Source of the DNA: Endomicrobium proavitum
GTDB taxonomy: Bacteria > Elusimicrobiota > Endomicrobiia > Endomicrobiales > Endomicrobiaceae
Assembly (NCBI RefSeq): GCF_001027545.1
Contig: NZ_CP009498.1
Span: 868,001 to 932,000 of the forward strand
DNA: 64,000 bases
Reading direction: 5' to 3'
This document shows, piece by piece, positions 8,541 through 53,184 of the stretch (position 1 is its first letter; each line of letters begins with the position of its first letter). Both the position numbers and the translations under genes were made by a program. The notes under the pieces are model-generated. The model worked only from the letters and a program-made list of their open reading frames with translations. It searched no databases and had not been told where the DNA came from.

Positions 8541-8686
8541 AAAGCAAATTCCTTATTGCCGGTCATTAATATTACATATAAAAAAGTTTTTGATTTTGAA
8601 AATTTAATTTTTAGTTAAAAGGTTTTTGCAAACACAAAACTACTTGAAAATTCAATTTTTTAAAAAGTTCAAGTAATTTCGCAAAG

Positions 8687-8761
8687 GGTGGCTGGCGGGA
8701 CTTGAACCCGTAGCCTTCGGTTCCACAAACCGATGCTCTAACCAATTGAGCTACAACCACC
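8687..8761 (-). tRNA. tRNA-His (GTG)
   Basis: Cloverleaf on the minus strand: acceptor GTGGTTG pairs with CAGCCAC, D-arm GCTCAATTGGTTAGAGC, anticodon arm CGGTT-TGTGGAA-ACCG region with GTG anticodon, T-arm GGGTTCAAGTCCC. The extra 5' G (8761) opposite a C discriminator (8687) is the hallmark of tRNA-His. No CCA is encoded. Confidence 0.95.
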
Positions 8762-8833: not shown

Positions 8834-8947
8834 AAATATACCCCGTCAGGCTTTGCCTGACTCCGGGGCGCTCACATCTCGCGCCCGTTCGTGGCTCGTG
8901 CTCCTTATTCGTCGCACACTCACCCCCTTTTTATAAAGGGGAATTAT
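8834..8947 (+). repeat. CCGTCAGGCTTTGCC dispersed repeat, copy A
   Basis: Contains a GC-rich hairpin around CCCCGTCAGGCTTTGCCTGA (8841-8860) and ends with CCCCTTTTTATAAAGGGG followed by AATTA. The same two blocks occur at 53360-53416 (opposite orientation) and 57667-57715, so this is a mobile or repeatedly seeded element. Copy A has about 60 extra bases between the blocks. Confidence 0.8.
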
Positions 8948-8969
8948 TACAACGATTCAATTTTAGCGA

Positions 8970-9060
8970 AGTATTTTGAGTTTAGACAAGGAAGAGGCGA
9001 GGAAAGTTTGCTAAACGCAAATGATCTAGTCTCTGACGCAGGATAAACTCAAAAGACAAA
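8970..9060. repeat. ~90-bp inverted-repeat element, copy 1
   Basis: Bounded by TTTTGAGTTTA (8974-8984) and its exact complement TAAACTCAAAA (9044-9054). The interior shares words in the same order with the copy at 52312-52402: GTATTTTGA, an AAG-xx-TGCTAA-xC segment, TGA, GACGCA and TAAACTCAAAAGAC. It lies between tRNA-His and tRNA-Arg. Confidence 0.78.
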
Positions 9061-9067
9061 GCTAAAA

Positions 9068-9141
9068 CGTCTCCGGCGTGAGTTGAACACGCAACCTACT
9101 GCTTAGAAGGCAGTTGCTCTATCCAGTTGAGCTACGGAGAC
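9068..9141 (-). tRNA. tRNA-Arg (TCT)
   Basis: Minus-strand cloverleaf: acceptor GTCTCCG pairs with CGGAGAC, D-arm GCTCAACTGGATAGAGC, anticodon stem ACTGC/GCAGT with loop CTTCTAA giving anticodon TCT, T-arm GCGTGTTCAACTCACGC, discriminator G. CCA is not encoded. It reads AGA codons, common in this AT-leaning genome. Confidence 0.95.
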
Positions 9142-9265
9142 ATCAAACAGTGAGAAGAGATTATACAAAATGACGTTCAGACAGTCAAATACTTATAACG
9201 GCAAAGTGAAATTAACTACAACGCCATAAACCTGCGACTATTATTTTTATTTTATTTAGACAAAT

Positions 9266-52270: not shown

Positions 52271-52311
52271 AAACAAAATGCATATGTCGTTAAATTCGTA
52301 ATTGTCGGGCG

Positions 52312-52402
52312 CATAGTATTTTGAATTTAAGCGAGGCGCGCGACGGCGAAGCGTGCTAAGCACGTGAGCTTGAGCGCAACGACGCATAAACTCAAAAGAC
52401 GA
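52312..52402. repeat. ~90-bp inverted-repeat element, copy 2
   Basis: Second copy of the element at 8970-9060: TTTTGAATTTA (52319-52329) and TAAACTCAAAA (52387-52397) bound it, with one arm mismatch. The interior holds GTGCTAAGCAC, a perfect small hairpin, and ends ACGACGCATAAACTCAAAAGACGAAGC-like. It abuts the 3' end of dapB. Confidence 0.78.
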
Positions 52403-52407
52403 AGCGC

Positions 52408-53184
52408 CTACTTCAGTTCCAAAACATCCTGCATATCATAAAGCCCCGGTTGTTTCCCTTTCAGCCACTTTGCAGCTCTAACTGCTCCTGCTGCGAAAGT
52501 ATCTCTTGAGTGCGCTCTGTGGGTAAGCTCTATTCTTTCTCCGGGACCTGCAAAATAAACTGTGTGATCGCCGACTATATCGCCGGCTCTTACAGACATA
52601 ACGCCGATTTCATCTTGATTTCTTGTGCCTATAATTCCGTGTCTGCCGTAAACTCCGACGGACTCAATTTTTTTACCTATGCCTTTAGCGGCAACTTCGG
52701 CAAGTTTGGCTGCAGTTCCCGAAGGAGCGTCTTTTTTCTTATTGTGGTGAAGCTCTACTATTTCTATATCGTAATCCGGAATTTTTTTCGCAACTTCGTC
52801 AACAAGTTTAAAAAGAAGATTAACGCCAATAGACATATTCGGCGACATAACAACAGGAATTGATTTTGCAATTTCAGCTATTTCGTTTTTTTGTTCGTCA
52901 ATAAAACCGGTGGTGCCTATAACTACGGGGATTTTATATTTTTTTGCAGCTTTCAAATTTTTCAAAGCGCTGTCCGGACTTGTAAAATCTATCAAAGCGT
53001 CCGCCTGCGGCAAAACTTTTTCCAAATCGCTAATTGGCGCAACCCGCGGCGTGCCGCTGCCAATTGCGGAACTTCCGTCATATTCAAAAGCCCCGACAAC
53101 CTGAACGTTTTCATCAGCTTTAGCAACAGACAAAATAGCCTGCCCCATTCTACCCGCAGCTCCGCATATAATTATTTTCATCAT
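52408..53184 (-). CDS. dapB: 4-hydroxy-tetrahydrodipicolinate reductase
   Basis: DapB reduces the DapA product to tetrahydrodipicolinate with NAD(P)H. The Rossmann domain starts KIIICGAAGRMGQAIL and has VIGTTGF. The substrate domain carries VELHHNKKKDAPSGTA (catalytic His and Lys) and GTRNQDEIGVMSVRAGDIVGDHTV. ATG at 53184 has GGGG upstream; the next codon is also ATG. 259 residues. The 5' leader from the promoter at 53239-53267 starts directly with a terminator-like hairpin. It is separated from dapA by the accessory patch at 53.5-56.6 kb. Confidence 0.94.
   Translation of the reverse strand: MMKIIICGAAGRMGQAILSVAKADENVQVVGAFEYDGSSAIGSGTPRVAPISDLEKVLPQADALIDFTSPDSALKNLKAAKKYKIPVVIGTTGFIDEQKNEIAEIAKSIPVVMSPNMSIGVNLLFKLVDEVAKKIPDYDIEIVELHHNKKKDAPSGTAAKLAEVAAKGIGKKIESVGVYGRHGIIGTRNQDEIGVMSVRAGDIVGDHTVYFAGPGERIELTHRAHSRDTFAAGAVRAAKWLKGKQPGLYDMQDVLELK

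Follow-up and report, generated by a model that had tools for sequence, protein, structure and literature searches.

A dispersed palindromic repeat has two copies in the window analysed here, by which we mean the whole stretch of 64,000 nucleotides. Copy 1 lies between the genes for tRNA-Arg and tRNA-His, and copy 2 lies directly behind a gene whose product, from reading the protein sequence, we take to be DapB (dihydrodipicolinate reductase). The features concerned are the following:

8961 to 9067, minus strand: copy 1, the whole palindrome including a 5-bp outer helix of local sequence (TTTTA/TAAAA), from the sequence and the model match
8966 to 9062, minus strand (that of the upstream gene): core of copy 1 by covariance model (R2, 93.2 bits, E 3.9e-21)
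8974 to 8984, plus strand: left arm of the 11-bp inverted repeat of copy 1, TTTTGAGTTTA, from the sequence
9044 to 9054, minus strand: right arm of the same 11-bp inverted repeat, the exact inverse of TTTTGAGTTTA
9067 to 9142, minus strand: tRNA-Arg (TCT), its 3' end abutting copy 1 (ARAGORN; 9068 to 9141 by Rfam)
8686 to 8760, minus strand: tRNA-His (GTG), the next tRNA downstream of copy 1 (ARAGORN)
52311 to 52405, minus strand: core of copy 2 by covariance model (R2, 93.3 bits, E 3.5e-21)
52408 to 53181, minus strand: dapB, the gene upstream of copy 2, by translation, with its stop codon 2 nt before the copy 2 core

The first-pass annotation had described copy 1 as a unit of about 90 bp at 8970-9060 that carries an exact 11-bp inverted repeat and separates two tRNA genes. 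Copy 1 does sit between tRNA-His and tRNA-Arg, both on the minus strand, and the order tRNA-Arg, element, tRNA-His recurs in three relatives (G001, G002 and G003). The inverted repeat is also present and beyond chance, its spaced form being found at one place in the window and never in 100 shuffles; the motif TTTTGARTTTA is found seven times against 0.92 expected. The repeat thus exists, but its ends lie further out and a 90-bp length is rejected: positions 8974-9054 are the core of an imperfect palindrome of about 107 bp, the covariance model places the core ends at 8966 and 9062, and five extra bases pair on each side (8961-8965 with 9063-9067). Apart from the opposite strand of copy 2, the model matched only copies 1 and 2 in the window, both on the minus strand. 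An interior shared with 52312-52402 had also been claimed; the second copy is real, but its arms, TTTTGAATTTA and TAAACTCAAAA at 52319-52329 and 52387-52397, are imperfect. A second G+C-rich sequence (GCGCTCACATCTCGCG...) occupies 8855-8920, between tRNA-His and copy 1. Its 15-base core, present once in the window, recurs in the home genome after tRNA-Asn (L051) and in G003 after a truncated element at tRNA-Leu (L201).

The home genome is a single contig of 1,588,979 bases that includes the window. Using BLAST, an exact spaced pattern and a covariance model built on 11 copies, we found 28 distinct places at E <= 0.00102 among the 150 of 1414 candidates that were scored; the model output held 30 rows, two of which were the opposite strand of places already counted. 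The exact spaced pattern gave 17 matches over the two strands and none in the control. A genome-wide search for copies had been proposed earlier, with confinement to two copies as the outcome that would speak against a dispersed element; the 28 model matches reject such confinement. Five copies stand head to tail behind tRNA-Leu(TAA) at 435341-435861 (L081) with a period of about 106 bp; the GCTTCG start is lost in three inner copies, and the orthologous gene of G002 has one copy. A second tandem comprises two copies at 1432028-1432226, and a half copy lies at 231694 behind one further tRNA gene. A direct repeat, ATTATAACAAATCCATTTTTTTAGTCCCGTCAG, is regularly spaced near 1285513 (L364), in the manner of a CRISPR array. 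Beyond the home genome, a 23-base pattern had no match in a collection of genome contigs that may leave out the home genome itself. Two exact patterns had no match in viral contigs, and carriage by phage is rejected on this result, which is weak evidence because exact patterns only were used.

The copies lie mostly at the 3' ends of genes, a link beyond what the earlier reading of the window alone could see. In the home genome, which has 45 tRNA genes, 11 of the 28 copies begin 2-11 nt past the 3' end of a tRNA on the same strand. A random place hits such a spot with p = 2.3e-4, so that 11 of 28 gives P = 1.7e-33. Among the remaining 17 places, seven begin 2-4 nt past a stop codon (found by script for six, and for 1432028 from a TAA read in the sequence), five follow another copy and five differ. 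At 1338786 the copy lies 23 nt behind an open reading frame, and at 431366 and 1046412 it is reversed. The copy at 1061626-1061720 (L099) abuts the 5' end of tRNA-Leu(CAG) in antisense; here the opposite strand of the tRNA gene, once folded, may have acted as the end.

The same rule extends to relatives. We assembled 93 copies from six genomes, 27 from the home genome and 66 from five relatives, with neighbours taken from ARAGORN and a simple list of open reading frames (>=70 aa) rather than from annotation. The weakest home match, 444600-444686, was dropped from this set and is also outside the placement analysis. The relatives' copies represent 66 of 89 matches (8 of 8 in G001, 20 of 22 in G002, 10 of 10 in G003, 25 of 39 in G011 and 3 of 10 in G012); from their 74 match rows, seven opposite-strand duplicates and a weak separate match (L173, 1530-1626) were left out. 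In sense orientation and within 30 nt of a gene 3' end we found 71 of the 93 copies, 34 behind a tRNA and 37 behind a stop codon, at a median of 4 nt in each class. Six others follow another copy (assigned by hand), and the one left open by the script is home copy 1432028, with TAA read upstream. The exceptions are seven copies reversed between genes of the other strand, the one at a tRNA 5' end in antisense, and seven without a clear neighbour. Between codirectional coding sequences, the upstream stop is closer than the next start in 31 of 33 pairs (medians 4 versus 53 nt). Another 20 stretches (18 from other families) gave 21 matches, three of which lie behind a tRNA and nine within 22 nt of a stop codon; nine fall outside the gene-end rule, and of these two (L320 and L322) follow a terminator-like hairpin, as judged by eye.

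A position at gene ends would suit a factor-dependent or otherwise unusual transcription terminator standing in for the usual intrinsic one after tRNA genes. The gene strand is richer in C than in G in 90 of 93 copies, a bias also found at Rho entry sites, and the usual terminators occur somewhat less often after tRNAs with an element (6 of 28) than after those without one (23 of 58). This difference is not significant (p = 0.14); the comparison skipped 6 of 34 element-bearing and 5 element-free tRNAs, and excluded 38 rows bearing an element or half element. Nor do the copies present a hairpin followed by a T tract, since the hairpin gives way mostly to A-rich or mixed sequence, with T's in some copies only. 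The next codirectional start is often only 18-60 nt on, and the L320 and L322 copies stand directly behind what is apparently an intrinsic terminator already. Replacement of terminators is rejected, and we regard a terminator role as improbable.

The consensus folds as one long hairpin whose internal loops are pyrimidine-rich on the gene strand, and the core measures 96-113 bp in 75 of the 93 copies. Three copies (L190 1307-1459, L194 1320-1473 and L181 1386-1539) carry about 50 extra bases in the apical loop that resemble another repeat, reading GGATTCC...GATTAAGACA in two of the three. Paired changes, which the first-pass annotation had suggested looking for, are abundant in the stem. In our first prediction, from 11 copies aligned without a model, 17 of 32 pairs already showed two-sided changes. 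In a set of 73 distinct sequences from 62 chosen sources, two-sided changes affect 23 of 28 stem pairs (an earlier count over all 74 rows was similar), and the proportion of paired cells is 91.8%, compared with 71.9% in shuffles and no more than 49.3% in slides; these alignments were fitted to the model and lean towards it.

Covariation of this kind could reflect a structured RNA, the alternative raised earlier for the repeat. The element would then be transcribed with the gene as a functional part of the 3' untranslated region, where its fold shields the transcript end or directs the processing of tRNA trailers, and its usefulness would account for its spread. The fixed orientation and the few nucleotides that separate it from the gene end are in keeping with such a role, as is the presence of a copy at the same genes in different species (several tRNAs and, presumably, going by the protein sequences, rpsG, lysC and hisG). 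Selection on RNA would give more G-U than A-C pairs. In the core stem the ratio of G-U to A-C is 46:73 (66 rows), against 105:22 in the acceptor and T stems of tRNAs from the same genomes (1,212 cells, 130 of them neither paired, G-U nor A-C; Fisher p 1.3e-12), and it is 28:42 when one poorly aligned helix, a source of some A-C cells, is removed. The absence of such an excess points to a DNA palindrome, and the stem appears to covary as one rather than as an RNA stem. At the outer five positions G-U outnumbers A-C by 29 to 9, with 93:71 at positions 6-12; the outer excess is the one pairing result that favours RNA, and it counts against a pure DNA reading.

Strand preference and database matches bear on the same alternative. 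The opposite, non-gene strand folds better in 78 of 93 copies with RNA parameters and in 88 of 93 with DNA parameters, so that the would-be RNA strand is the less stable one in most copies. At gathering scores, Rfam matched only tRNAs in the window and neither copy, and at E <= 0.5 six loci gave no convincing match to the element. Below threshold, two matches (27.7 of 114 and 28.7 of 55 bits) reach the end of the L320 copy, next to the terminator-like hairpin. The element is moreover missing from many orthologous genes, and copies at the same gene are not more alike than others (see below). A conserved RNA is rejected for want of a wobble excess in the core and of an Rfam match at gathering scores; the structured-RNA alternative thus finds no support, and we judge a functional RNA element unlikely.

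The bases just outside the core pair with each other although they are specific to the site, as in TTTTT/AAAAA, TTTTA/TAAAA, AAAAT/ATTTT, GGC/GCC and AATC/GATT. Flank positions 1-4 are paired in 77, 76, 76 and 63 of the 93 copies, each above the maximum of 2000 re-pairings, and position 5 (49 of 93) and those beyond are not above them. Among the 57 copies without TTTT beside the core, positions 1-3 alone exceed re-pairings. Similarly, exact inverted 5-mers flank 32 of 93 copies, against 10.5 in shuffles (maximum 18). The target-site duplication that the first-pass annotation had thought worth seeking at the ends did not appear: direct repeats of 3-6 nt adjoin the core in 0-1 of 93 copies, at chance level by comparison with shuffles, and a target-site duplication is rejected. 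Direct repeats of 2 nt are more frequent (19 versus 4.9), as palindromic dinucleotides would give, and those of 8 nt occur in 3 of 93 copies against no more than 2 in shuffles, a count that three inner tandem copies would produce by their flanks.

To describe the spread of the element, we examined the home genome and 40 relatives, and found model matches in 19 of these 41 genomes: 18 of the 25 in the home family and one of the 16 others. With a broader model (74 rows) and E <= 1e-5, the family turned up in at least 79 of 294 genomes sampled from the phylum; this is a minimum, since 13 candidates per genome were scored. Presence at a given gene is uneven. A tRNA gene that bears a copy in one species can lack it in another, and when several species have a copy at the gene, the copies often differ in subfamily or size; tRNA-Arg(TCT) bears a copy in the home genome, G001, G002 and G003, of 62 to 101 bases. 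In 31 same-gene pairs from 13 picked genes, the partner was the best match in the other genome in four, and the fractional rank averaged 0.47. When identity was taken over aligned columns, so that length differences carry no penalty, three of 31 ranked first and the average was 0.55; among the 24 pairs of ordinary length the figures are three and 0.57. Copies at the same gene are therefore no more alike than other copies, and gene-end sites seem to be re-filled.

These comparisons also bear on whether the element has long been present at gene ends, passed down vertically and gradually disappearing, with hairpin-templated repair homogenising its stems. The same genes bear a copy in different genera (whether more often than by chance is only roughly estimated), four of the 31 pairs do rank first, and some pairs look inherited, such as rpsG of G002 and G003 (0.92) and tRNA-Glu of G001 and G003 (0.86). 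Yet the mean ranks of same-gene pairs, whether 0.47 or 0.55, are no better than chance, and the home genome contains tandem arrays and close copies. The closest copy lies within the same genome for 21 of 27 copies in the home genome and 21 of 25 in G011; the corresponding counts are 0 of 8 in G001, 9 of 20 in G002 and 3 of 10 in G003. We consider vertical inheritance as the main explanation very improbable.

We looked for an empty counterpart of copy 2 at dapB loci of relatives. None of 19 loci (two from one assembly, one with just 70 nt of flank) has an element directly behind the dapB stop codon; their flanks do not align with the home flanks, so no exact insertion point was obtained. The single weak match in these loci (25.8 bits, L232) is more than 400 nt away from dapB. 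The nearest named relatives of the DapB protein are Endomicrobia or Endomicrobium records at 70-74% identity. In the home genome tRNA-Val has an element between TTTTT and AAAAA; the corresponding place in G001 (L214) reads TTTTTACAAAAA, a single case of what may be an empty or healed site. As no pair of filled and empty sites with alignable flanks was found, movement is inferred.

We searched for candidates that might move the element. Y1/HUH transposases (PF01797) were absent from the home genome, G002, G011 and G012, and present once each in G001, G003, G004, G008 and G017. An integron integrase (TIGR02249) was below cut-off in all 16 family-f1 genomes searched, the home genome showing, with this model, just two Xer-sized tyrosine recombinase reading frames; only G026 and G027, of the same order, exceeded the cut-off, and G026 has one weak element match. 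Reverse transcriptase (PF00078) was missing from 12 of 13 genomes, home included, with two in G049, and PF02371, one of the two IS110-type transposase domains, was found in none of 13. RAYT (Y1/HUH), integron integrase, reverse transcriptase and IS110 are rejected as movers, since these searches found none in the home genome, in the case of the integrase none over cut-off.

An autonomous partner was likewise sought by end patterns. None appeared in the home genome among the 8 of 27 matches that were read, nor in 77 sequences at up to 4 kb, a search that partners with diverged ends would escape; the one distant pair of end patterns (L160) proved to belong to two ordinary copies. The first-pass annotation had considered a non-autonomous transposable unit. 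Dispersed copies, patchy presence and dissimilarity of same-gene copies support a non-autonomous mobile unit, but a classical inverted-repeat transposon is weakened because neither a target-site duplication nor an autonomous partner was found. The element shares with MITEs of the DDE-transposase type its shortness, terminal inverted repeats and many copies, and differs in lacking their target-site duplication and in showing, with the end patterns searched, no autonomous element with the same ends.

Integron attC sites conserve structure over sequence, stand behind stop codons in gene orientation and fold better on the opposite strand. The element resembles them in being an imperfect palindrome with that same placement, orientation and strand preference, and in its capacity for tandem arrays, so that a dispersed attC-like recombination site has to be weighed. 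In contrast to attC, the copies are dispersed and follow tRNAs and apparent housekeeping genes, the conserved ends are not the attC boxes, and the 16 family genomes gave no integrase over cut-off. An attC-like site is hardly credible.

We think it probable that the element is a non-autonomous, REP/ERIC-like palindromic mobile repeat of about 107 bp, aimed at gene 3' ends and distributed across the phylum. Both its mobility and a mechanism of hairpin joining are inferred. The element would move as a DNA hairpin, in keeping with the better folding of the strand opposite to the gene; an enzyme acting in trans would join the hairpin at the ends of transcription units; and the inverted flanks would arise as the joined hairpin end is extended, copying a few target bases. 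Effects on neighbouring RNA, such as stability or trailer processing, would be secondary. It is a speculative further step, one we rate as doubtful, to see here a new kind of mobile hairpin, whose enzyme, no known transposase, reverse transcriptase or integrase, would recognise the end of a transcription unit or a folded DNA end (a tRNA cloverleaf, a terminator, a stop region or another copy), join the hairpin and copy about four target bases to the far side, producing an inverted target repeat.

Bacteria commonly contain small palindromic repeats, and little is understood of what determines their sites. This family is a clean case that spans many genomes of a single phylum: its distance from the gene and its orientation to it are mostly constant to within a few bases, for tRNA genes as for protein genes, and the flanks are inverted local sequence in place of the duplication that would be expected. 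The family thereby gives a defined starting point for finding an enzyme, and allows one to test why REP-like repeats accumulate behind genes.

Several known systems invite comparison. Group IIC introns insert behind gene ends and intrinsic terminators; the element is far too short to be one, and the home genome is missing the reverse transcriptase domain. RtT RNA consists of repeats behind tRNA-Tyr in enterobacteria, and is likewise a repeated, structured sequence behind a tRNA. The element differs from it in having no RtT match, in not being confined to tRNAs and in its DNA-type covariation. Titles and the beginnings of abstracts found in literature searches contained no description of this repeat, and the accessible part of an Endomicrobia genome paper (PMC11257099) mentions transposons, insertion sequences and CRISPR, with no mention there of such a repeat.

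The closest parallels are palindromic repeats of other bacteria. REP/BIME sequences with RAYT (TnpA-REP) are, in the portions of the sources available to us, short palindromic intergenic repeats that lie predominantly downstream of coding regions and whose ends can supply stop codons (PMC3733652, PMC12306157 for the former; PMC3733652 for the latter); in E. coli, 446 of 4,072 predicted REPs are within 15 nt of a stop codon, according to an excerpt of PMC12306157. The location downstream of genes is thus shared, but the element is about 107 bp against 20-40 for a REP, lacks a GTAG/CGTC tag, has flanks that vary from copy to copy, keeps mostly one orientation to the gene and uses tRNA ends too, in a home genome without a Y1/HUH transposase. 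ERIC/IRU, YPAL and the RU-1 to RU-3 MITEs are described in the available parts of PMC3733652, PMC2759123 and PMC2229807 as dispersed imperfect palindromes of about 100-170 bp, intergenic and non-autonomous, all of which applies to the element. It differs from them in its inverted local flanks without a target-site duplication, in its tie to gene 3' ends, those of tRNAs included, and in belonging to another phylum. We conclude that the repeat represents a new family of REP/ERIC-like palindromic repeats, which is placed with unusual precision at gene 3' ends and is flanked by inverted local sequence without a duplication of the target.
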